Source of the DNA: Nitzschia sp. pyKryTriq1
Lineage: Eukaryota > Bacillariophyta > Bacillariophyceae > Bacillariales > Bacillariaceae
Reading direction: 5' to 3'
DNA: 64,000 nucleotides
Assembly (NCBI GenBank): GCA_956465555.1
Contig: OY101120.1
Coordinates: 620,001-684,000 of the forward strand
Part shown: piece after piece, positions 22,649 to 45,194 of the stretch
Layout: each line of letters begins with the position of its first letter
Position numbering within the stretch: position 1 is the first letter of the stretch
Translations under genes and position numbers: made by a program
Notes under the pieces: model-generated
Seen by the model: only the letters and a program-made list of their open reading frames with translations
What the model was told of the DNA's origin: nothing
The model's database searches: none

Positions 22649-25600
22649 CTAAGTTGTTGCTTTGATACCAAATATTGCGCGAATCTCAGTCACATATTTG
22701 TCGTAAATCCGAGTGTTTTGCTCAGCCTCTTTCAAAGTCTCAGTTTTACCATGTCCGACAGGTGTTATGAATTTCTTTTCCATAGCTTTCGTTCGATCAG
22801 CAAGGCCCACAGCTCCGGTCTTAATGTCGACAAAAATGAATTCTTCGCCACGTTTGTTCTTTTGGGTCTTTTTGAGTTGGACGCCCCATTTACTTTTAAC
22901 CTGCTCGGCCTCTTCAAGGTCGTAGTCTTCGACCTCCATCTTCTCGACAACGATCTGCGGCTTGACACCAAGATTCGGCGAATCCAGCATCGCTTTGAGA
23001 AGCCTTTCTTTTCCAAAAGCTCCCTTTTCGGCTTCGTTGAATTCCAATTTGTTTCCTTGGTTTGGTGTCAACATTTCCTTGTCGATCACTTCGTCACGAT
23101 CAACACCAAATAGGGTGCCATACTTGACATCGACAAAAACAATACGATCATCCCTAGGCTCCAGATACAAGACAGACCCCTTTCGAATTCCATACTCCGT
23201 GGCTGTTCGCTTGCCGACATCCAACTCCTCTTCGTTGAAGGTGAGCACTTGTTTGCGCGGTGCCAGGCCCGATTCCTCTTCCAATAATTCCTTGATACCA
23301 TCGATCGTCTCGATTGGTTCAATTTGAAGTGGGAGTTTTTTGCCGTCTTTGGTTTCGACTGTGATAGGGATTTTGAAAAGAGTGCATTGGATTGTTGACT
23401 GGTGCTTGATCCCCATTCCCCTAACTGTAGTATTGGCCAGAATTTCCTTCTGGTTGAACCGCAAGACTTGGCGAGGTGCCGCTACACCGGTTTTTTCTGC
23501 GATCTTTTCTTTGATGTCATCGCCTGAGGAGTCCGCAGTCACCTCGAATGAGCAAGATGACCCGTCTGGCATTGCAACAGTGAGTTCAATATACCGCGGC
23601 TCAACGTACATGATTGAGCCTCCCTTGATGCCGTATGCATTGGCTCGCTTGTTATCATCGCGAAGTACTGTGTCATTCATGGATAAGATCTGATTTTTTG
23701 GAGGAATAGACGACTCTGGTTCCAACAAGTTCTTGATTTCGATGAGCTTGTCTGTAGGATCCACCATGATTTTGATCACATTCCCGTCCCATGTCTTCAC
23801 AGTTACTGGAACCTTGAAAATTTCCACGTTAATGTTTGATCCTTCTCGGAGGCCAACGGTCCTTGCTTTGCCGTCCTTCGGAATCTCGTTTCCGTTAAAT
23901 TTGAGGACCTGTCGAGGTGCTTCCATCCCCGTCTCATTTTCGATTTTCATCTTGATAGCATCGCCGTCGTCCGATGGAGAAATTTTGATGTCGTGCTTCT
24001 TGCCATCGGGCATGGTCACTGTGATATTGATGATTTTGGGCTCTAGGTCAAGGAACGAACCAGCCTTGATACCATGGTCGTGGGCCGTTTTGTCATCGCC
24101 GACAAGCTCAGCGCCAAGCCTGGATAGAGATTGATTTGATGGAGCGATTCCAGACTCCGGTTCCAGCTGAGATTTTATGCTTGATAATTTCGCGGTTGGT
24201 TCTACCAGTGTATCAATTTTTTTACCGTCCCAGCAATTGACGGTCACGGGAATTGTGAAGATGTCTGCTTTGATGGACGACCCGTCCCGAATTCCCAACT
24301 CTTTTGCCGTGACTCCTTTGGATGGGATTGCCTTGCCGTCAAAACTGATTGCCTGTCTGGGAGCCTGCAAGCCTGTCTGAGCTTCAATCTTATTTTTTAT
24401 GGCATCACTGTCGTCCGACGGCGAAATTTCGACTTCTCTTGTTTCTCCATCTGGCATGGAAACATTCACATTGATTACTTTTGGCTCCAAGTCCAAAACT
24501 GTTCCTGCTTGTATACCTAGCTCTTGGGCTGATTTGCCATCGCCCTGCAGCTCATCTCCTTCGCGCGAGAGCACTTGGTTGTTGGCAGAAATGCCAGATT
24601 CGGGCTCCAGCATCTTCTTGATAGCCGCCACTTTGTCTGATGGTTCCACTTCAATCTCAATAACCTGCCCATTCCAATTGTTAACTGTTACAGGAATCTT
24701 GAGAACATCAACAGTGAGGTCAGAACCGTCTTTCAAGCCCATGTCTTTTGCTGATGTGCCAGCAGGCAATTCCGTGCCATCGTGCCTCAGGACCTGTCGA
24801 GGCACGGTGATCCCGGTCTTTTCCTCGATCTTTTGCTTGATTGTATCCTCGGTATCGGTAAGAGCGATGTCGACGTCATATTTCTGTCCATCAGGAGTCT
24901 GGACCTTAACGGATATGTTTCGTGGTTCTAGATCCAAGATATCTCCTGCTTTGATGCCAAGCTCTTCAGCAGATTTTTCGTCACCTGTCAGCTCGTCTCC
25001 TTCCCGAGAAAGCACTTGGTTGTCGACAGGAATGCTTGATTCGGGTTCCAACATTTTCTTGATAGCCGTGAGATCATCCGACGGCTCTACCTCAATCTCA
25101 ATTGATTTGCCGTCCCAGTTGTTGACCGTGACTGGAATCTTGAAAATGTCAACGGCGAGATCACTGCCATCTTTCAGACCCATGTCTTTTGCTGACTGAC
25201 CGGCGGGTAGTTCTTCCCCATTGTGCTTCACAACTTGACGGGGCACCGAAATTTCAGTCTTCTCCTCAATCTTTTGCTTGATTTGATCCTCAGTATCGGC
25301 CAATGCAATGTCGATATCATGGGTCTGCCCATCAGGAGTCACGACCTTCACGGATATGTTTCGTGGTTCTAAATCCAACACATCGCCCGCTTTGATGCCG
25401 AGATCTTGTGCAGATTTCTCGTCACCTGTCAACTCATCTTTTCCGCGTGAGAGAAGTTGGTTCTTGGGAGCAATGCCAGATTCTGGCTCCAGCATCTTCT
25501 TGATAGTCATGAGATCATCTGACGGTTCTACCTCAATCTCAATAACCTTCCCATCCCAATTGTTGACAGTCACAGGGATCTTAAAAATATCAACCGTGAG

Positions 25601-28600
25601 GTCAGAACCTTCTTTCAAGCCCATGTCTTTTGCTGATGTGCCAGCAGGCAATTCCGCGCCATCGTGCTTCAGGACCTGTCGAGGCACGGTGATCCCGGTC
25701 TTTTCCTCGATCTTTTGCTTGATTGTATCCTCGGTATCGGTAAGAGCGATGTCGACATCGTGGGTTTGTCCATCGGGAGTCTGTACCTTGACAGCGATGG
25801 TTCTTGGTTCTAGATCCAAGACATCTCCTGCTTTGATTCCAAGATCGTCCGCTGACTTTTCGTCACTGGCTAGCTCGGCGCCATCGCGTGAGAGAACTTG
25901 GTTGCTGGGGGGAATAGCAGATTCTGGTTCCAGCATCTTCTTGATTGATATCAGGCTGTCAGTTGGCTCAACCTCGATGGCGATCGGTTTGCCATCCCAG
26001 TTGTTGACTGTCACAGGAATTTTGAAAATGTCAACAGTGAGGTCGGAACCGTCTTTCAAGCCCATATCCTTCGCTGATCTGCCAGCTGGTAGTTCCTCGT
26101 CGTTGTGTTTGACAACTTGTCGAGGCACAGTGATTCCAGTCTTCTCTTCAATCTTTTGCTTAATTTGGTCCTCAGTATTGGCCAACGCAACGTTGATGTC
26201 ATGGGTCTGCCCGTCGGGCGTAACGACATTGACATTGATCACCCGAGGCTCCAAATTCAAGACGGAACCCCCCATAATGCCATGATCGAAAGCCGTTGTA
26301 GAGTCACCCTCCAGTTCCTTACCTTCTTGTGAAAGAACCTGGTTGTCGGAAGCAATACCAGATTCTGGCTCCAGCATCTTCTTGATAGTCATGAGATTAT
26401 CTGACGGTTCTACCTCAATCTCAATAACCTTCCCATCCCAATTGTTGACAGTCACAGGGATCTTAAAAATATCAACCGTGAGGTCAGAACCTTCTTTCAA
26501 GCCCATGTCTTTTGCTGATGTGCCAGCAGGCAATTCCGCGCCATCGTGCTTCAGGACCTGTCGAGGCACGGTGATCCCGGTCTTTTCCTCGATCTTTTGC
26601 TTGATTGTATCCTCGGTATCGGTAAGAGCGATGTCGACATCGTGGGTTTGTCCATCAGGAGTCTGTACCTTGACAGCGATGGTTCTTGGTTCTAGATCCA
26701 AGATATCTCCTGCTTTGATGCCGAGGTCTTCCGCTGATTTTTTGTTGCCCTCGATTTCTTTGCCTTTCCTTGAGAGAACTTGGTTCTCGGGAGCAATCCC
26801 AGATTCTGGTTCAAGCATTTTGCGGATGGTAGCGAGGTCGTCCGACGGTTCAACCTCGATGGCGATCGGTTTGCCATCCCAATTGTTTACAGTGACAGGA
26901 ATCTTGAATACTTCGACGTCAATAGTGGATCCATCCTTTATTCCCATGTCCTTACTTGGCACTCCCTCTGCCGGTAACAGATCACCATTGTGCTTCAAAA
27001 CTTGCCTTGGTACAGCCATGCCTGAGTTTGCTGCAATCTTGTCCTTGATTGTCGGAGTGTCGTCTTTGGGGGAGATTTCCATCTCGATCGATTTTCCATC
27101 TGGCATCTGAACATTGATTTTGATGGATTTCGGTTCTAAGTCCAATACGGCTCCTGCTTCAATCCCATACTCATCAAGTTTCTTGTTGGGATCTGCCAGC
27201 TCCTCACCTGCCATGGTGAGATTCTGATTCTTTGCAGGAATGCCCGATTCCGGTTCGAGTTGCCGCTTCAAATCTGATAAGTAGTTGGTTGGGTCTACCG
27301 TCAATTCAATCGGCCCATCGGGGGCATTGACAGTGATGGGAATCTTGAAAATGTCAACCACGATTGTTGAGCCATCTGTGATCCCCATGTCTTTGCTCGA
27401 CGTGTCATCTGGGGGAAGCTCCTCGCCATTGTATTTCAAAACCTGACGAGGTACCGCCATGCCCGTCTTGGCTGCGATTTTGTCCTTAATCGTTGGAGTG
27501 TCATCTTTTGGGGAGATCTCCAACTGGAAGGATCCTCCTTCTCCTTCCGGCATTTCGACATTTACGCTGATAACTTTCGGTTCCAAGTCCAACACAGTGC
27601 CCGCCAAGATACCGTAATCCTCTAGCTTCTTGTTGGGGTCGTCAAGTCCCTGACCAGCCTTGGTGATATTTTGGTTCTTTGCAGGAATACCCGATTCGGG
27701 TTGGAGTAGTCGTTTAAGATCGGACAAGTAGTCGCTGGGGTCCACCATTAACTCAATTGACCCACCCGGAGCGTTGACAGTGATGGCTATTCGTAATGGC
27801 TCCACAAAAAAAACATCGTTATCTTTGACACCAAGTGCCTCCATGTCCTTTCCACCATCTTCCATCAAGGTGCCTTTGTACTTGAGAATTTGTCTTGAAG
27901 TTGGAACGTTCAGGCCAGCCGCAATTGCATCCTTGATGCTATCAATGGTATCTCTCGTATCAACCTCCATGGGAAGCTTCCTTCCATCAGAATGTTCCAC
28001 GACAATTTGAAGATATTCTGGTTCCTCGCTTTCGTCATCATCAGGTGGTGTACTAAACTCCACGCACTTGAGCATGATGGCGTAGAGATTCAAATCAGCC
28101 ATAACATCACAAAAACGCTGGACTTGTGTGCGATAATAGGCAAACAGTTCATGATGTTGCCGATCCGCAACATTTTCCAATTTATCACCTATCTCAGTGA
28201 CCGCATCTTCGACCGCCTTCATGGAGACATATTGGTGAAAGCCTTGCCGGATCAGGGCAGCACCAAGGTGGAACTTGCTGAACCCTTTTTTCTTTTCATC
28301 AGCCTTGAGCGCAGGAACTAAAACTTCGATCTCATTTCTCACTTGTTCCAATGAGTTGCACATTTCGTTCAGAGCTAAGGAAGCCTTGACAGTCTTTTTG
28401 TCCTCGCCTAAATCTCCTTTGTGAATGAAATCGAGCACTTTGGTCGTTTTGGTAACCAATGTTTTGAGCTTGGCCTCCAGGTCGTTACACGACTTTTCGG
28501 CCGGCTCCATGCCTTTATCATACAAAAATTCCTCGAGACGAGATAAAAACTGACCTTTCCATCGTTGGAATGTCTTGTACTTTTTGACCCGGTCCAACTT

Positions 28601-28702
28601 CTGCACGAGCATTTGAAGCTCCGCATCGGATTTGATGGGGTTACTCTCTTCCACGATACTACCATGTCTAGTCGGGACACCGGTACGAGCTGGCCTACTC
28701 AT
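22649..28702 (-). CDS. Giant poly-ubiquitin-like protein: 22 tandem UBL domains plus C-terminal domain
   Basis: A 2017-aa single-exon protein. The ATG at 28702 is used because the frame upstream has only a non-ATG start. Residues 1-228 are helical and charged (unrecognised). Residues about 229-1848 are 22 ubiquitin-like domains of about 73-74 aa, alternating between two types. One type reads VKVQTPDGQTHDVDIAL...IKQKIEEKTGI..PRQVLKH and ends DIFKI. The other reads PVTVNNWDGK.IEIEVEPSD...IKKMLEPESGI...NQ and ends LDLEPR.I. The ubiquitin core pattern (I..K..IE...GI....Q.L...G.EL......LGI..GS.L.L) is plain. No domain ends in Gly-Gly, so the array should not be processed or conjugated like polyubiquitin. 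Residues about 1850-2017 form a further domain shared with the MDR oxidoreductase at 30993-32720. Function is unknown; a non-cleavable binding scaffold is the simplest inference. Confidence 0.88.
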   Translation of the reverse strand: MSRPARTGVPTRHGSIVEESNPIKSDAELQMLVQKLDRVKKYKTFQRWKGQFLSRLEEFLYDKGMEPAEKSCNDLEAKLKTLVTKTTKVLDFIHKGDLGEDKKTVKASLALNEMCNSLEQVRNEIEVLVPALKADEKKKGFSKFHLGAALIRQGFHQYVSMKAVEDAVTEIGDKLENVADRQHHELFAYYRTQVQRFCDVMADLNLYAIMLKCVEFSTPPDDDESEEPEYLQIVVEHSDGRKLPMEVDTRDTIDSIKDAIAAGLNVPTSRQILKYKGTLMEDGGKDMEALGVKDNDVFFVEPLRIAITVNAPGGSIELMVDPSDYLSDLKRLLQPESGIPAKNQNITKAGQGLDDPNKKLEDYGILAGTVLDLEPKVISVNVEMPEGEGGSFQLEISPKDDTPTIKDKIAAKTGMAVPRQVLKYNGEELPPDDTSSKDMGITDGSTIVVDIFKIPITVNAPDGPIELTVDPTNYLSDLKRQLEPESGIPAKNQNLTMAGEELADPNKKLDEYGIEAGAVLDLEPKSIKINVQMPDGKSIEMEISPKDDTPTIKDKIAANSGMAVPRQVLKHNGDLLPAEGVPSKDMGIKDGSTIDVEVFKIPVTVNNWDGKPIAIEVEPSDDLATIRKMLEPESGIAPENQVLSRKGKEIEGNKKSAEDLGIKAGDILDLEPRTIAVKVQTPDGQTHDVDIALTDTEDTIKQKIEEKTGITVPRQVLKHDGAELPAGTSAKDMGLKEGSDLTVDIFKIPVTVNNWDGKVIEIEVEPSDNLMTIKKMLEPESGIASDNQVLSQEGKELEGDSTTAFDHGIMGGSVLNLEPRVINVNVVTPDGQTHDINVALANTEDQIKQKIEEKTGITVPRQVVKHNDEELPAGRSAKDMGLKDGSDLTVDIFKIPVTVNNWDGKPIAIEVEPTDSLISIKKMLEPESAIPPSNQVLSRDGAELASDEKSADDLGIKAGDVLDLEPRTIAVKVQTPDGQTHDVDIALTDTEDTIKQKIEEKTGITVPRQVLKHDGAELPAGTSAKDMGLKEGSDLTVDIFKIPVTVNNWDGKVIEIEVEPSDDLMTIKKMLEPESGIAPKNQLLSRGKDELTGDEKSAQDLGIKAGDVLDLEPRNISVKVVTPDGQTHDIDIALADTEDQIKQKIEEKTEISVPRQVVKHNGEELPAGQSAKDMGLKDGSDLAVDIFKIPVTVNNWDGKSIEIEVEPSDDLTAIKKMLEPESSIPVDNQVLSREGDELTGDEKSAEELGIKAGDILDLEPRNISVKVQTPDGQKYDVDIALTDTEDTIKQKIEEKTGITVPRQVLRHDGTELPAGTSAKDMGLKDGSDLTVDVLKIPVTVNNWNGQVIEIEVEPSDKVAAIKKMLEPESGISANNQVLSREGDELQGDGKSAQELGIQAGTVLDLEPKVINVNVSMPDGETREVEISPSDDSDAIKNKIEAQTGLQAPRQAISFDGKAIPSKGVTAKELGIRDGSSIKADIFTIPVTVNCWDGKKIDTLVEPTAKLSSIKSQLEPESGIAPSNQSLSRLGAELVGDDKTAHDHGIKAGSFLDLEPKIINITVTMPDGKKHDIKISPSDDGDAIKMKIENETGMEAPRQVLKFNGNEIPKDGKARTVGLREGSNINVEIFKVPVTVKTWDGNVIKIMVDPTDKLIEIKNLLEPESSIPPKNQILSMNDTVLRDDNKRANAYGIKGGSIMYVEPRYIELTVAMPDGSSCSFEVTADSSGDDIKEKIAEKTGVAAPRQVLRFNQKEILANTTVRGMGIKHQSTIQCTLFKIPITVETKDGKKLPLQIEPIETIDGIKELLEEESGLAPRKQVLTFNEEELDVGKRTATEYGIRKGSVLYLEPRDDRIVFVDVKYGTLFGVDRDEVIDKEMLTPNQGNKLEFNEAEKGAFGKERLLKAMLDSPNLGVKPQIVVEKMEVEDYDLEEAEQVKSKWGVQLKKTQKNKRGEEFIFVDIKTGAVGLADRTKAMEKKFITPVGHGKTETLKEAEQNTRIYDKYVTEIRAIFGIKATT
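25479..25837 (-). repeat. Copy 1 of a near-identical 359-bp segment in the UBL array
   Basis: Matches 26361-26719 with only about three differences seen by eye. The offset is exactly 882 bp (294 codons), that is, four UBL domains or two A/B pairs. Neighbouring units are clearly more diverged, which indicates recent duplication or gene conversion. Confidence 0.85.
26361..26719 (-). repeat. Copy 2 of a near-identical 359-bp segment in the UBL array
   Basis: Partner of 25479-25837, 882 bp apart and in the same reading frame. It covers most of a B-type UBL, a complete A-type UBL and the edge of the next one. Confidence 0.85.
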
Positions 28703-29384
28703 TGCGCCGAAAGGATTATGTTTTGGCTCCGTGCACAACACCAGAAGGAATGAATCGAAACCATACAATGAATTCAACGGAAAGATAGATATTTGACTTC
28801 GGGCGTGTGTCTACTTCCGAGAGAAAGATGCATGACTTGACGCATGTACGAATCATCATCATCGAATCGATCTATCTTCCGTGTGCTTTGGGCCTTTTTC
28901 CCCGTCGGCATCAAATCAAAAATTTTGAAGATCGGGTCATTATTCATTATTTATCTATTCTCTCTATTGTGCGTGACTACTCGTCGACGACTCGTACGAA
29001 TACTTTATTGTGAATGACGAATGACGCCATCAGCGTCTGGACGTCATCCTGACTATGACAAATGACAACTGACTCATCCGATCCATCATTTACTGTACCA
29101 GTACGAACCCCAGGTGTACTGCGTACAGCGTATTGTACAAGTACAGTACTGTACTGTACAAGTGTACCTCGTACGACGTTCAAACACCAGATCGATCTTT
29201 TTGTTTCAAACTTAGGACGCAGCGAGATCTACCGTACCGGTACCGGTACATCATCTCAGACTTCTTGTTTCATTTCATCGTCTGTACTCGTATCTGGCTC
29301 CTGGCTATCATTACTTCTTTATCAGGCAGTGCCAGCAAAAGACCCGTTCATTAAAAAAGAGGGAAGCTTCTGTAGAAGGATAGA
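28703..29384. other. Divergent intergenic region
   Basis: Separates the minus-strand poly-UBL gene from the plus-strand DUF1415 gene. It contains GTAC-rich, self-complementary repeats at about 29097-29165 and a doubled ACCGGT block near 29233-29248. No gene is seen. Confidence 0.5.
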
Positions 29385-37114: not shown

Positions 37115-40045
37115 TCATGCAGCGTATGCGACCGTGGGCGTTTTCTGCTCAACAGACGACTCATTGCTGCCCCTTGTTGTCTTGGACCATCCGTGCACTC
37201 CAGCTTCCAGCCACGCCTCCTCTAAGCTCTTAAAGCACAGGGGCTTGGGTAAAATCCTGTCAGCCCCGCATTTTCGGAAGTGCTGAACATCCTCGCTGAA
37301 AATGTTCCCAGTGATCCCGACGATGAACGAAGTACAGCCCAACTTCTGACGCATAACGCTGGCTGCCTCCGGCCCGTTCATATTGGGCATTTCATAGTCC
37401 AGCAAAATGGAATTATATGGCCTTCCTGTTTCGATCGCTTCCTGCACTTTTGCAACAGCCGCTACACCATCTTCCGCTTGATCACATTCGTGGTCATGGT
37501 TCTGCAATAATCGCATGAGCAACTTTCGGTTAATGGCAGCATCATCCACCACCAGCACACGAAGAGGATTTGTCAGTGAAAATTGTATCTTGTGAGAAGA
37601 AACTGGCTCTGCCTCGCTTGTCAGCTCCAGTCCACCACCGTTGGGGGATTCCACGCTAGCCATACGGTACAGTGGGAGAGTCATCGTAAACGTCGTTCCC
37701 AAACCGAGGCCTCGGGACGATACAGTCAATGAACCCCCATGTAAATTCACAATTCCTTTCGCGATGTACAAACCCAGCCCACTGCCTTGTCCCGACTGTA
37801 GCTTGTTGACGTTGAATTGGACGCCCTTCCCGAACATTTGCTTGGCCTGTGCTGTCGATAAACCGGCTCCACTGTCCGTCACCGCGACGGTGAGAATTCC
37901 CCGCTGGACGCAATTTACTTGGACTTCATCTTGCAATAGAAAGGAAGACGCGACTTCTTCACAGTCGCATGGTATCCAACTACTTTTTATGGTCACGTTT
38001 CCTGGTTCGAAAGAGTATTCGAGGAATTGTCGAGGAGATGAGATGGGCGAGCATCAAAATCAAGACAACCCGTCAGTATTCGGACGTACCTTTCTCGGGT
38101 GTGAACTTAAGTCCATTGGAAATTAAATTTCGAATCACCTGCGTGATGCGAACACCATCTCCAATGACTTTAAGGCCCTCGACTCCCCGCGCCCATTTCC
38201 ATTGACCCTCCACATCCACATCCCGAGCGTTCCCGAAGTCAACCTTGAAATCGACGCTCTTCTGCCGGGCTTGTAGGACGAACTCGGACGCAGCGCGATC
38301 AAGTAAAGACCAGATGGAAACGATGCCAAGCTCCAAAACCATAGTGCCTGTCTCAATCTTGTCGTAGTTGAGCAAATCATTGAGCACGTCAACCGCATTT
38401 TGGGTGTTGCTATGAATATCTTCACTGAGTTTGATCCACTCCTCAACTTCTTTGCGGGCGTCCATTGCATCTCCTTTCATACTTATGATGGAGGATCTGC
38501 TCATTTCGCTTTGCATCAATTGAAGTCCCATATTTACAGCATTCAGAGGTGTGCGCACTTCATGTGAGATGTAGCGCACGTGCTGCTTTTTGGCCTGAAG
38601 GATGACTTTCTTCGAATTAATCTTTTTCCGAACAAAGCGGTCATAGACCAAGAAGAGACATGATGTGAAAAGGATGATCAAGATCGCCCCTGTAGCAGCA
38701 GCGCTAGGGTTTGATGTGCGATAAACACTGAAGAATTCTTCGTTGGGGTACAGTGTCAGTCTGTATGTAGCAGAATAGTTACTATACACCCCCGGGCTAT
38801 TCAGAACGACCGTTTTACCAAATTCATTGAATCGGTTATCATGTAAATCTCCCTCGCCCCTGTTATGCAATAAATGAGTGAGTGTATCGGATGATTCATG
38901 GTCTGATCGATGTGGGCTGGGAATACTTACCTCGTGGTTGCAATGCCATGCTGAATCTGGTAAGTGTATGCTTTGGTATCTGTTTCCAACACACAGTCAA
39001 TGCCGATGACCCTACTTGAAAACACGTTGAACAAGATATCCGACCATTCAATGGTGGAAGAAATCATCCCGACCAACTCCCGGTTATCGTTTTCTGGATG
39101 AATTGCTTGTATCAGGACTGCAGCTGGAGTTGATTTCGAGGATTTGGCTTGTCCGTAGAGGAAGGTCAAGTCCGACAGGGTGCTACACTCGATGTTTGCT
39201 TCCTCCTCGGGTCCCTCCTCGTCTCTCTGTTCCCACAGGAGGTTGGCACGTTCCTTTGAGCAGGTGATTACGTCGTCGATCACTCGACCGAAGATCTCAT
39301 AGGAATGCAAATTGAAAGTCAGGATCGCGCAGCCATAGCTGTGGTACAAGTACGGTGTCATGACATGGTAGGGACTTCCCCAGTATGTTTCGCCGTCGGT
39401 TTCATGATACAGATTGTCGGAGGTATTCAATGCCGGGTTATTTCCATTCACGCCTTTTCCGAAGGAATGGACGCCAGTTCCGTTTGGGCAGTTCTTCGCT
39501 ATGACTTCGTCATAAAGAAAGGCTTCAAAGTCACCAAGTTGGTCTTCAGTGACCAGCGGCAGTAGTCCCATTGAGCGTCCATTTGAGGTTGCGATGATAT
39601 TGTTGGAGACCTTCTCAAAGCCATTAATCTTCACATTTGGCCACATATCAGCGTCTGGAAAAGCGGTTGAAGCAACCGAGGCCAAAGTGGCAGCCCCCAT
39701 CCCTTGCCGCTTAGTTATCTCAACGGTTGCTTTCAACGCCCGCCCGCTTATTGCTTTAAACTGCTCACAGGCCAAAGTGACCTCGGCGTCGGACAAAAGT
39801 CGATCTGCACTATATCCAAGCACAGCCGCCACCCCGGCTAGGCAGAAGATAAATACAATACGGCTTGCTGTCACAAATGATAAACGCGAAAGGCAAATGC
39901 TGCTAGATTCTTCTTCTGAAACTAAAGATGAACATGGCGATGAAACTGATATTGCCGAACTTGTTGTATCCATACCGATATTCCAACTGCTTCTCTTGTT
40001 TCGGGCTTCAGAAGTGCATCGACTATTATATTCTTTCGAGGTCAT
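37115..40045 (-). CDS. Hybrid sensor histidine kinase with receiver domain, 3 exons
   Basis: Exons 40045-38931, 38859-38090 and 38001-37115 are joined by GT-AG introns of 71 and 88 bp (phases 2 and 1). Frames close exactly to 923 aa. A membrane helix lies at about 58-78. An extracytoplasmic CHASE-like sensor region (about 85-420) follows, with repeated cysteines and a DADMWPNVKINGFE segment, then a second helix at about 428-445. The kinase core has the H box SHEVRTPLN (His about 471), the N box NLISNGLKFTPEKG spanning the second intron, the G1 box VTDSGAGLS and the G2 box GQGSGLGLYIAKG. A receiver domain follows (VLVVDDAAINRKL; phospho-acceptor Asp about 830 in ILLDYEMPNMNG; the Thr of GITGN and the Lys of LPKPL). 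All residues for autophosphorylation and phosphotransfer are present. Downstream output would need a separate phosphotransfer protein. The ligand is unknown. Confidence 0.9.
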
Positions 40046-40932
40046 GGTTGCTTTGTGATTATGTGCCGATAGAGGATATAATCATCAACGCACACTACTT
40101 CATGTGTTGTACGGGAAGGGCTGTGAGCTGTGAGAGAAGATAATAATCAATTAATCAATAACGCCGAACGTTCGGTATTATAGGCTGAATATAATCAGGC
40201 CCTACGGGTTTCTGTTCGTGTACGAACCGAACTCTTCGCATACATCCAGTTAGTGCAGTACGTACTGTAGTTAGTGGCAACTCTCCTCCCCGCCCCATGA
40301 TGCAAGCACCGATGGATGTAGAGTACCTGGTACCTGATACTTGTACATATGCCCATGCTTTGCAAAGCGAACCTGCGATCCATGCATCATCTCTTTATTC
40401 CTCATCAGTCTACAGTACCGGTAGTCTCTGGGTAGTCTCTTTACGGGCTGTCGGTGGCTGTTTTTGCGCGCGTTTTTATTTCATCTTTACCAGATGTTCC
40501 TCTCATTCTTCGTGTTCTTTCCGATTCCGTTCACCGACCTCTCTAGATGATAAAGGCACCTTGTTGTCGGTCTTGTTTGCATTCAACAGCCCGCTATTAC
40601 CGGTACAGGCGGCAGGTAGTCTACTGTACCGGTAAGCCGGCGGGGCAGCTATTGTACAACACAAGAAAACGAGCGCTACTACTGTAGTAGGCTGCTACTA
40701 GGTCCGAGCCTAACATGGTTGAGAGCTAGCGAAGGGCGAGGCTTCAATCCCAAGTCCACAAAGGTCGGCTTACCCCCGGGTACGTAGGTAGCTAAAATTT
40801 TATAAAGGAAAAAGGAAGAAAAAGAAAGGAAAGAATTCCACTGTGCGTTAATCGTAGAAAATGCTTTATCAAGGATCACATTTTAACGCGCATGAAATTC
40901 AAGGATCCTTGAAGATGCTTCCCGAACAACCT
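40046..40932. other. Intergenic, start of an accessory region
   Basis: Upstream region of the histidine kinase, with GTAC repeats near 40320-40350 and 40405-40430. From about 40680 the sequence character changes to AT-rich accessory DNA (a TATAAAGG-like box near 40800). No gene is supported. Confidence 0.45.
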
Positions 40933-41086
40933 CGTCGCCAGATGGTGCGCTCCATGTTGGAAGTGAAATAGTAATAGTTGATGTCGCTTGCATCCGAGAC
41001 GCAACCTCGGCGGATGTGAACAAGGAACTGATAGTACTAGACCTTCCAGCTTTGCTTTGAAAAAAGGGGTTCACCAGTCTTATCAT
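40933..41086. repeat. 154-bp tandem duplication, copy 1
   Basis: Begins CGTCGCCAGATGG and is nearly identical to 41087-41240, with one difference noticed. 154 is not a multiple of three, so any frame crossing the boundary changes phase. Confidence 0.9.
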
Positions 41087-41240
41087 CGTCGCCAGATGGT
41101 GCGCTCCATGTTGGAAGTGAAATAGTAATAGTTGATGTCGCTTGCATCCGAGACGAAACCTCGGCGGATGTGAACAAGGAACTGATAGTACTAGACCTTC
41201 CAGCTTTGCTTTGAAAAAAGGGGTTCACCAGTCTTATCAT
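41087..41240. repeat. 154-bp tandem duplication, copy 2
   Basis: Directly follows copy 1 without a spacer. The unique sequence CCTTTAAATTCG follows at 41241. Confidence 0.9.
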
Positions 41241-41445
41241 CCTTTAAATTCGCAATAAACTTTGCGACGGCGGTGAAGCGTTCCTCCAGGAGCTTTGGGT
41301 CCGGGATGACACGCTCGATATCCTGAAGAATCTTGCTGCTCGGACAGGCCATCCTCCTCTCTGCCTCCTCTCGAGATTTGCTCACATCACCAAAACGAAG
41401 GGCACTTTTCGTAAAATTGAAGCATTCATGCCCATTTTCACTCAT
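41191..41445 (-). CDS. Small hypothetical ORF entering the 154-bp duplication
   Basis: An 84-aa frame from the ATG at 41445 (MSENGHECFNFTKSALRFGDVS) with protein-like composition: helical EEAERRMACPSSKILQDIERV, then KLLEERFTAVAKFIANLKD. It runs into the duplicated unit and stops just inside it. The other frame of the duplicated unit is also open in both copies and ends ILEFHAR near 40883, so the duplication may have disrupted a longer gene, or an unrecognised splice may join the frames. No family is recognised. Confidence 0.35.
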   Translation of the reverse strand: MSENGHECFNFTKSALRFGDVSKSREEAERRMACPSSKILQDIERVIPDPKLLEERFTAVAKFIANLKDDKTGEPLFSKQSWKV

Positions 41446-41954
41446 AATATTGAGTTTTGACTGATAATGTTTAGTTTTGACACTGCGCTTACACTTTTAT
41501 TGCATCCGCTTACACTTTTATTTCATTTATTCTGTCCAGATCGAGATATTTTAGTCGATAATGTGCTCTTTTTGTAAAAAGCTTACACTACGCTACCTAC
41601 GTGGCCGGGGTATCCCCCAAAGGGGCTTACCCCCTGGCCGGGGTATCCCCCAAAGGTCCACGTTCTCGAATAGTTGATCTCGGAGAGGGAGTGAGGGATT
41701 ATTTGACTCCAGTTAGTCAAAATGATCATCCGTTGGGTCATTCCGGATCCTCCGGAAATTTAATGGATTTTGATTGGTGAAAACGATGTTCTTTGAGTAA
41801 AAGGTATTGTTCCTCGAGTAAAAGGTCTTGTCGTTTCGTTATGTAAAGATGTCGCAACGACAAGCCCTTTTACTCAAGGAACAAACTGACAACAGGGAGC
41901 GCATCATGTCGATATACGCACTATACGTAGGTATATGAATACCTAGTTCAATAA
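41446..41954. other. AT-rich accessory DNA
   Basis: No gene is seen. Short repeats are present: a GCTTACACTTTTAT-type motif twice near 41485-41520, and a GGCCGGGGTATCCCCCAAAG motif twice at about 41602 and 41635. Confidence 0.5.
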
Positions 41955-42137
41955 TACAATAATGCGAAAAGCACGCGCTTTCACCGCGGTAAAACATTGA
42001 TACAATAATGCGAAAAGCACGCGCTTTCACCGCGGTAAGAACATTGATACAATAATGCGAAAAGCGCGCGCTTTCACCGCGGTAAGAACATTGATACAAT
42101 AATGCGAAAAGCACGCGCTTTCACCGCGGTAAGAACA
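41955..42137. repeat. Tandem repeat, about four copies of a 46-47-bp unit
   Basis: Units start at about 41955, 42001, 42048 and 42095. Each contains GCGCTTTCACCGCGGTAA, and so the perfect 8-bp palindrome ACCGCGGT. Copies differ at only a few bases. There are no variable spacers, so this is a minisatellite rather than a CRISPR-like array. It ends about 130 bp before the left terminus of the TIR element. Confidence 0.9.
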
Positions 42138-42267
42138 GATATAATAATGGGTGCTTTGTTACGGCTAGAGTAGTAGTAATAGCCTGTCTACCCCCTTCTC
42201 TCTATGTAGAAACAGTACCAGAATAAATATTGCAGTGCCTTGCAGGGACTTGCAGGGTTCTTGCAGA

Positions 42268-42414
42268 GAGCCCCTCAATGCCACCTTTTTGTAGCCGGCC
42301 CGGTCCTGTTCAAACCAACTCGTCCTGGCCTACTCCGACTAAACAGTGGTACTCCGACCGTCCGGCACACTCACCAATCAGGAATTAGGAATCAGAAAAT
42401 TCAATAGAAAAATC
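42268..42414 (+). repeat. Left terminal inverted repeat, 147 bp
   Basis: Perfect inverted match to 45048-45194. Sequence identity ends sharply at position 42414 on the inner side and at 42268 on the outer side. Confidence 0.95.
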
Positions 42415-42512
42415 GAATTTTTCCCTTGTCAGCAGAGGGAGCAGGTGGCGCTCACTCACTCCACAACAATAAAAAAAGGGCACACAATTTCCCATCACAT
42501 CGCCGGAACAAC

Positions 42513-44134
42513 ATGTCCAGGTCGAACTTCGAGCCCCTTCCAAAAAAATACATCAAAAGACAGCAGCCTGCCATCGTCAAGCATGATGGCAAGTTCTTTG
42601 TCTTCCTTCATCCAGGGCAGATGGTAGTATGTGCCTTGTGTGGATTCGTGAGTATGCCGACCGACCGGTCGAATTTAATTCGAGTTAACTTATTCCTGTG
42701 TATTTTTGTATTCAACATAAATTCTTATTCATTTTTCTGTTCTGTTTTTCCGATCTTTTTTCTGATCTATTTTTCGATCTATTTTTCGAATTTAATTTCG
42801 AATCTCGTCTTGCATTTGCAGACATCAAGGAGTATGGAGTCCCTTTCGAAACACTTCGTGTACAAGTGCCCTGTAGCTGTCCCTAGTAAGGCAAGGCTGG
42901 TAATCAAGCCTAAACTCAACACTAATTTGATGTTGGATAAGGTAAAGGTAAGTTGTTCGTGTTGTGTCTCTACTGCAGTTCCTGCGAATTCGATTTCGAA
43001 TTCGAATTCGAATTTTCTAATTATTACTTTTCACTTTAGGTAAAAAAAACCGATTCTGATAGTGATGATGATGGTGACGAGGAGAGTGATGATGATAGTG
43101 ATGACGACGATGATGATGATGATGATGATGAGGAAGAAGAAGAAGTGCCCAAGAGCAAGAAGAAGTCAAAGAACAAGAAGAAGAAATCAGCCAAAGTAAG
43201 TTCTCGACTAGTGTGTGCGTCTTTACTGCAGGCTTGAATTCGAATTCTAATTCTAATTCGAATTCGAATTCTCTAATTGTTACTTTTGACTTTAGGCTAA
43301 AAAATCCGATTCGGGTAATGATGATGGCGGTGACGATGAGAGTGATGATGATGATGATGATGATGATGAGGAAGAAGAAGAAGTGCCCAAGAGCAAGAAG
43401 AAGTCAAAGAACAAGAAGAAGAAATCAGCCAAAGTAAGTTCTCGACTAGTGTGTGCGTCTTTACTGCAGGCTTGAATTCGAATTCTAATTCTAATTCTAA
43501 TTCGAATTCTCCAATTGTTACTTTTGACTTTAGGCTAAAAAATCCGATTCGCCCGCCACTGATGATGAGGAAGAAGAAGAAGAAGAAGTGTCCAAGACCA
43601 AGAAGAAGTTGAAGAAGAAGAATCCTCCTCCTCCTCCTGCTAGTGCCGATGCTGATGATGATGATGAAGATGATGATGAAGAAGAAAAAGAAGAAGAAGC
43701 GCCCAAGACCAAGAAGAAGTTGAAGAAGAAGAAGAATCCTCCTCCGCCTGCTAGTGCCGATGCTGATGCTGATGATGATGATGATGATGAAGACGTAAAT
43801 GAAGAAGAAGCGCCCAAGAAGAAGTTGAAGAAGAATCCTCCTGCTAGTGACGACGATGATGATGTTCCTACTCCTCATGATGACGATGATGAGGGTGAGG
43901 CCAAGGTGAGTTGTCGACTAGCGTGAAACAGTCTGTTTCCTCCAGACTGTTTCTCACAACATCGAATTATTGCAACAGAACAACATGGATGAGGATGGTG
44001 CTGATGATGGCCCTCGCCTCTGGTGCACTACCCTCACAGGGCATCCATGCAAGGCTGGGATGAAATTGAAGGATTATTGTGCTATGCACTCTTCCCAACG
44101 TGTCAAGGCCAAGAGTAGCAGCCATACTTTCTAA
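42513..44134 (+). CDS. Element gene 1: Asp/Glu-Lys repeat protein with terminal Cys/His motifs, 6 exons
   Basis: Exons: 42513-42647, 42822-42947, 43040-43195, 43296-43433, 43534-43905 and 43979-44134. All introns are GT-AG and phase 0, and the sum is exactly 360 aa. The start is ACAACATGTCC, and the next frame change would destroy the reading. Exons 1-2 encode a compact domain with CALCGF and HFVYKCPVAVP, a possible zinc site. Exons 3-5 are alternating acidic (poly-Asp/Glu) and lysine-rich blocks (KKKSKNKKKKSAK, KTKKKLKKK) with PPPPASADAD spacers. Exon 6 ends with WCTTLTGHPCKAG and YCAMHSSQ, matching the short C-x5-C...C-x2-H motif seen in DUF5763-like zinc modules. It is probably a nuclear or nucleic-acid-associated protein (inference). 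Introns 3 and 4 and adjoining exon parts are a recent 238-bp tandem duplication. Confidence 0.75.
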
Positions 44135-44893
44135 GGAACCAACGTTTGTTGTCATAACAAAAGAAGATGCTAAATACAAAGGGGCAGAGGTCCTTAGCGT
44201 CAGAGGGTCGTTTGGTGGTGGATGCACGGTTACTACCCCCACCAGACTGCATGAAATGAGCAACGTGAAGTTAGTACAGAAAATTATTATGTTACTACCC
44301 CCACCAGACTGCATGAAATGAGCAACGTGAAGATAGTACAGAAAATTATTATGCATTTTCGAACTCGACATCGAATTCGAATTCGATGTTGAATTACGTA
44401 TTCGAATTCGAATTCGATATTTCGAATTCAATTTTCATATTTCCGAAGTGCTTACCTCTCGTAGCAGAAACCCCCTGCTGCAAATAAGTCTAATTTTCCT
44501 AAAGGCACCTTGCTTTTCAACAGTCCTCGTTACAAGAGAAAAGCCCACAGGGATGCATGCCTTGGCGCAGAGGGCAACAACTAGTTCTCTGACGGAAGCG
44601 CTATCCTCGTTGTATTGGGGGGGAAACCAGAGCTTGTGTTGTTCCTACATCGGGGTAAAAAACGTAAGGGAAATTCGAACTTTCGAGAGAAAATACTATT
44701 TTTCGAATTCGAACAATCTGAGTGCAGTACTTACACGGTCAGACTTAGACGCAGAATCAACCATGGTCGACGCGACATCATACCTGACTGTAGCTGTTGA
44801 TGTCAGGTCCTCATGGAGGTCAAGGAAAATACCATCAGCCCTCCAAGTATTCTCCTCATCCAGTGATGAAAGGAGCTCGTCATAGGTTGACAT
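44103..44893 (-). CDS. Element gene 2: possible FAR1-like DNA-binding protein, 3 exons
   Basis: Exons 44893-44735, 44644-44456 and 44246-44103, with GT-AG phase-0 introns of 90 and 209 bp, give 163 aa. The start is the ATG at 44893 (MSTYDELLSSLDEE). Exon 2 encodes SVRELVVALCAKACIPVGFSL, then FRKIRLICSRGF. Exon 3 encodes DAKDLCPFVFSIFF and RWFLRKYGCYSWP before the stop. The spacing of GFS, C-x-(R/K)-G, CPF and W resembles the FAR1/WRKY-GCM1-like zinc-binding module of Mutator-type transposases, but the terminal His pair is not reached, so it may be truncated. No catalytic domain follows. The last 32 bp overlap the end of element gene 1 on the other strand. The family call is tentative; the exon structure is better supported. 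Confidence 0.6.
44231..44352. repeat. 61-bp tandem duplication carrying a duplicated 3' splice site
   Basis: Copies 44231-44291 and 44292-44352 differ at one base. Each contains, on the minus strand, the candidate acceptor TTTCATGCAG|TCTGG of element gene 2. Because 61 is not a multiple of three, the two acceptors lead into different frames. Confidence 0.9.
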
Positions 44894-45047
44894 GATAATG
44901 GTGAGGTGTGTTTGATGGAGTAATGTAGAGATGATGTGATGTGAGAGTGATGCAGAGAATGAACACAAAATAAACACAAAACTTGCGGGGCGCAATGGTT
45001 GGATGTTGTTGCTTGGAAATTCGAAAGCGGAATTTTGGGAATTATCT

Positions 45048-45194
45048 GATTTTTCTATTGAATTTTCTGATTCCTAATTCCTGATTGGTGAGTGTGCCGG
45101 ACGGTCGGAGTACCACTGTTTAGTCGGAGTAGGCCAGGACGAGTTGGTTTGAACAGGACCGGGCCGGCTACAAAAAGGTGGCATTGAGGGGCTC
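45048..45194 (-). repeat. Right terminal inverted repeat, 147 bp
   Basis: Perfect inverted match to 42268-42414. Confidence 0.95.

Follow-up and report, generated by a model that had tools for sequence, protein, structure and literature searches.

What kind of genetic unit lies between positions 42268 and 45194 of this stretch of diatom DNA (the window, 64 kb in its whole length), where two genes that face each other are enclosed by matching inverted repeats? The original prediction offered two answers: a young element of undescribed compact architecture, or a gene-carrying derivative of a MULE. The features from which an answer can be built are listed below.

42268-42414, plus strand: left terminal inverted repeat (TIR), 147 nt, beginning GAGCCCCTCAATGCC; pairs 147/147 with the reverse complement of 45048-45194
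42331-42358, plus strand: 9-nt direct repeat TACTCCGAC within the TIR (42331-42339 and 42350-42358), weak candidate protein-binding sites
42513-44134, plus strand: gene model of six exons (42513-42647, 42822-42947, 43040-43195, 43296-43433, 43534-43905 and 43979-44134), all phase 0; 360 aa, pI 4.7
43109-43551, plus strand: 238-nt unit of exon and intron sequence, duplicated in tandem within the plus-strand gene, 1.9 copies with 99% matches; also found as 208 nt at 99%
44103-44134, no strand assigned: overlap of the coding ends of both gene models, 32 bp
44229-44353, no strand assigned: 62-nt tandem duplication across the 3' splice site (44247/44246) of minus-strand intron 2
44103-44893, minus strand: gene model of three exons (44893-44735, 44644-44456 and 44246-44103), all phase 0; 163 aa
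45048-45194, minus strand: right TIR, 147 nt, outer end exactly 45194

Comparison of the two arms showed that they were identical at 147 of 147 positions, with outer ends at 42268 and 45194, which bears out the perfect 147-bp TIRs that had been predicted. Ungapped extension of the pairing reached 161 nt at 97% identity, the similarity ended abruptly both outward and inward of each arm, and a search of the window (64 kb, exact seed of 14) found no other inverted repeat that reaches 40 nt. The absence of differences places a 95% upper bound of 2.0% on divergence between the arms. The description of the element as young agrees with this identity, which is its sole basis, but gene conversion between the arms could be an alternative source of the same result. 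The direct repeat TACTCCGAC within the TIR is weak evidence for binding sites, because a direct repeat of at least 9 nt also arose in 51 of 2000 base-shuffled versions of the TIR.

Two convergent spliced genes with a 32-bp overlap of their coding ends had been proposed, and both could be rebuilt, sharing 44103-44134, with splice sites selected by eye for an open frame. In the two models, each of the nine exons has a length divisible by 3, and the seven introns (73-209 nt) all begin with GT and end with AG. Since the splice sites were picked to hold the frame open, these open exon chains represent consistency and not independent proof. Both models run inward, from predicted start codons that lie 98 and 154 bp inward of the TIRs.

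The plus-strand protein has the composition described for it, with blocks of Asp/Glu and Lys between Cys/His motifs at both ends. The N-terminal motif is C-x2-C-x12-H-x4-C and the C-terminal motif is C-x7-C-x9-C-x2-H, and between them the repeated acidic/Lys blocks make the protein largely low-complexity. Pfam scans of its N- and C-terminal pieces, on either side of the low-complexity middle, found no family above the cut-off. These scans, like those of the other protein pieces of the element, allowed a maximum E of 10, with filters that drop most matches above about 0.1. Across the protein pieces of the element, matches to DUF2464, DUF6857, Srj, zf-C2H2_9 and a ZHX finger (E 0.01-0.12) were all below the cut-offs and were treated as chance; the weak zf-C2H2_9, ZHX finger and Srj matches overlap the N-terminal Cys/His motif of the plus-strand protein.

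The minus-strand protein had been called FAR1-like. By eye, against the FAR1 consensus, a resemblance could be followed through GFS..C-SRG..T-KRP..CPF..RWFL. The frame meets a TGA stop directly ahead of HVG, and therefore the two last expected zinc ligands, a His pair, are missing. Pfam found no family above the cut-off in this protein, and no FAR1 or SWIM, also when the stop was read as X; the FAR1 label is a resemblance of motif only. The 62-nt duplication at 44229-44353 doubles the 3' splice site of intron 2 and creates two possible acceptors. An alternative last exon, also sought by eye, was dropped because the intron would measure about 46 nt.

No FAR1, MULE or any transposase profile matched the scanned protein pieces of the element, and no transposase was found among the open reading frames of at least 150 aa in the window (29 of 40 scanned). 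A DDE MULE transposase was thus not recognized in the element pieces or in these 29 frames, and the original statement that no transposase catalytic domain is visible holds for the scanned element pieces, where no Pfam family rose above the cut-off. PHROGs and NCBIfam yielded nothing. Sequence searches of the PDB gave no match at all or matches to zinc fingers and unrelated proteins, none with an E below 0.3. Scans of the window for tRNA genes and Rfam families were empty. Elsewhere in the window, the scanned frames included a DUF6824 gene and a single open frame of 2042 aa (22649-28777, minus strand) in which Pfam finds 22 ubiquitin-type stretches; 8 stretches also match the SUMO-like Rad60-SLD model, and the region ahead of them, at the N-terminus, is non-ubiquitin. 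At 37115-38870 (minus strand), an open frame with HisKA is followed by another with HATPase and a response regulator, probably the two parts of a hybrid histidine kinase that an intron or a frame change divides. The many open frames, the GC content of 48%, the spliced genes and the DUF6824 gene would suit a diatom-like stramenopile as host.

The terminal 18-mer of the TIR, with up to 3 mismatches, matched the window only at the two arms (2 matches, 0.02 expected). It had no exact match in viral_contigs and three in genome_contigs, where 7.5 would be expected by chance at even base composition; all three were prokaryote MAG contigs, which showed no similarity to the element there beyond 18-19 nt. 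Three protein queries against viral_contigs gave 5, 3 and 7 pattern matches, none of which was confirmed by tblastn (the first query contained six wrong residues). Such null results in viral and prokaryote contigs are expected for a eukaryotic element and have no bearing on its copy number in the host.

No exact target-site duplication (TSD) of 3-12 nt was present at the exact ends of the element. The best TSD-like match there was 5 of 9, which 5% of random pairs attain, and with each end free to move by as much as 6 nt, no match of 6 nt or more surpassed CTTGCA/CTTCCA (5 of 6), which is the chance level for so many shifts. A degenerate TSD was rejected on these figures, and a decayed TSD is unlikely because the TIRs are identical. 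PIF/Harbinger elements have a 3-bp TSD and a Myb-like second protein; this assignment was also rejected, as the ends are AGA and CCT and no Myb-like family appeared in the scanned protein pieces. MULEs in general are described with a TSD of 8-11 bp (PMC6446971), and none of that length lies at the ends of this element. Table 1 of the same paper enters its group 37, 'MULE-Diatoms', as 'No TSD and not indicated', with TIRs of 123-124 bp and one ORF plus a SWIM finger. For diatom LTR elements that have no TSD, exchange between two copies has been invoked (PMC2806351). The missing TSD could therefore reflect either a TSD-less lineage of diatom MULEs or a later exchange between two copies.

Tandem repeats occur on the left side of the element. 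A 47-nt unit forms an array of 4.2 copies (96%) at 41954-42149, about 120 nt away, and a 154-nt duplication of two copies (99%) lies at 40932-41241. Short imperfect TTGCAG-based repeats (42230-42267) reach the left TIR, such that an insertion, if any, adjoins a simple repeat.

Composition set the element apart from the rest of the window. In the 2.9-kb element there are 20 of the 47 TTCGAA and 16 of the 30 AATTCG in the window, densities 15.5 and 23.8 times those of the remaining 61 kb, in a comparison with all neighboring sequence rather than intron against intron and for motifs that were picked after the introns had been seen. Eighteen of the 20 TTCGAA fall within the seven introns, on both strands, and among the same-length segments listed that do not overlap the element (250-nt steps) none had more than 4. 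The GC content of the element is 43%, versus 48% for the window. That genes on opposite strands share a sequence style which is rare nearby favors a common origin as one unit, and in their sequence the two genes do look like one unit distinct from its surroundings.

This composition bears on two alternatives in which the genes belong to the host. The first is that there is no transposon, and that a 147-bp promoter segment was recently duplicated in inverted orientation, or converted, at both ends of a convergent pair of host genes. The missing TSD, and a TIR end that recurs nowhere in the window beyond the two arms, would suit such an origin. However, abrupt copies that lie outside two facing genes and enclose a unit with an intron composition of its own are more in keeping with a TIR element, and we regard the duplicated promoter as unlikely, though worth weighing. 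A Pack-MULE or an element like it, in which the TIRs enclose one or two captured host genes or fragments as passengers, is likewise unlikely. MULEs are described as prone to acquire fragments of host genes (PMC6446971), and neither protein matches a transposon family in the scanned pieces. Against this, both genes have one unusual intron style that is rare elsewhere in the window, both read inward from the TIRs in the manner of element genes, and no parental gene copy lies within the window.

The remaining alternatives are weaker. A distinct autonomous type of TSD-less element, moved by an unrecognized activity of one of its small proteins, would account for the open state of both frames, for the lack of a TSD and for the failure to recognize a known family, but proteins of 163 aa and of a largely low-complexity 360 aa offer scant space for a catalytic domain, which makes this highly improbable. 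An assembly artefact in the form of a false palindrome is hardly credible and was rejected because of the 2.6-kb non-palindromic interior and the unrelated flanks, which with arms of only 147 nt make an unusual shape for a hairpin misassembly.

Known elements provide a closer model. The convergent two-gene layout of MuDR, which is about 4.9 kb long, is best known from plants. In maize, MuDR is described as two convergent genes, mudrA, which encodes the transposase, and mudrB, whose function is unknown, between TIRs of about 215 bp that hold promoters and a transposase-binding site (PMC3440606). Table 1 of PMC6446971 gives several MULE groups a second ORF, which is often antisense. In diatoms, MuDR1_TP and MuDR2_TP are reported for Thalassiosira pseudonana (PMC2725143). 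The claim that the compact two-gene architecture is undescribed is not supported, since the MuDR layout and the second ORFs of MULE groups were already known. Among the literature matches listed, titles and the starts of abstracts described no diatom element that is two-gene, transposase-less and TSD-less.

As in MuDR, long TIRs enclose two convergent genes, here predicted, the second of unknown function. The present element differs in its length of 2.9 kb, in the overlap of its coding ends, and in that no transposase domain or TSD was recognized. Its TIRs are of the same order as those of the group 37 MULE-Diatoms (147 versus 123-124 bp), for which no TSD is recorded either. That group has one ORF with a SWIM finger, whereas the present element has two genes and no recognized SWIM or DDE, in a comparison made with the published description only. 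Mutyl of Yarrowia lipolytica is also a MULE with a second gene, antisense, beside the transposase (PMC6446971, Table 1; PMC5014426), but its TIRs are imperfect and 22 bp long, its TSDs are 9 bp, and it carries a transposase in 7.4 kb. A further parallel is offered by plant FRF proteins, truncated FAR1-related factors described as keeping the FAR1-type DNA-binding region without the transposase and SWIM domains (PMC6000157). The minus-strand protein, if it is of the FAR1 type, is likewise reduced to the DNA-binding region. FRFs are host genes of plants, and the minus-strand protein differs from them in having neither a FAR1 profile match nor the terminal His pair.

As the anatomy fits the MuDR plan minus the transposase, a non-autonomous MuDR-like element is favored. 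We hold with moderate confidence that this is a MuDR-like two-gene TIR element without a transposase, which it either lost or never carried, and that it is predicted to be mobilized in trans. The lack of a TSD, of a profile match and of any further copy of the TIR end in the window or in viral contigs weakens this reading, as does the single ORF with a SWIM finger listed for the diatom MULEs. Of the two answers first offered, the MULE derivative that carries genes is preferable, although neither the TSD nor the transposase of a MULE was found, and of the features expected of a MULE the long TIRs are present (147/147 nt). The element was not filed as a MULE because of these two absences and because the FAR1 resemblance was seen by eye without profile support. 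It is probably a crippled relative of known elements, or a look-alike, and not a new class.

In the proposed mechanism, another locus of the genome would make a transposase, and the ends that this enzyme recognizes would lie in the identical TIRs. We infer mobilization in trans by that enzyme, transcription of both convergent genes from promoters that the TIRs would also supply, and FAR1 ancestry of the minus-strand gene. That gene would derive from a FAR1/MULE-type transposase and retain, in truncated form, its N-terminal DNA-binding part. The plus-strand gene, in the mudrB position, is predicted to encode an accessory protein. For FRF proteins without a transposase domain, competition for binding sites has been suggested (PMC6000157), and by analogy the truncated minus-strand protein might, as a conjecture, compete for sites in the TIRs; two ligands short, it may equally be dead. 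A bolder version is distinctly doubtful, namely that an alga or other stramenopile harbors a family of TIR elements that leave no TSD and carry two genes, neither of them for a transposase. The same TIR would drive both a truncated DNA-binding protein of the transposase type and a charged protein with two zinc motifs, and the element would regulate or parasitize an unlinked transposase from its own ends.

If the MuDR-like element is mobile, the convergent MuDR layout also exists in a compact form without a transposase, in a host lineage that is probably one whose MULEs are recorded without a TSD. It would then offer a small system in which to study both the role of the gene in the mudrB position and the insertion of MULEs that leave no TSD.
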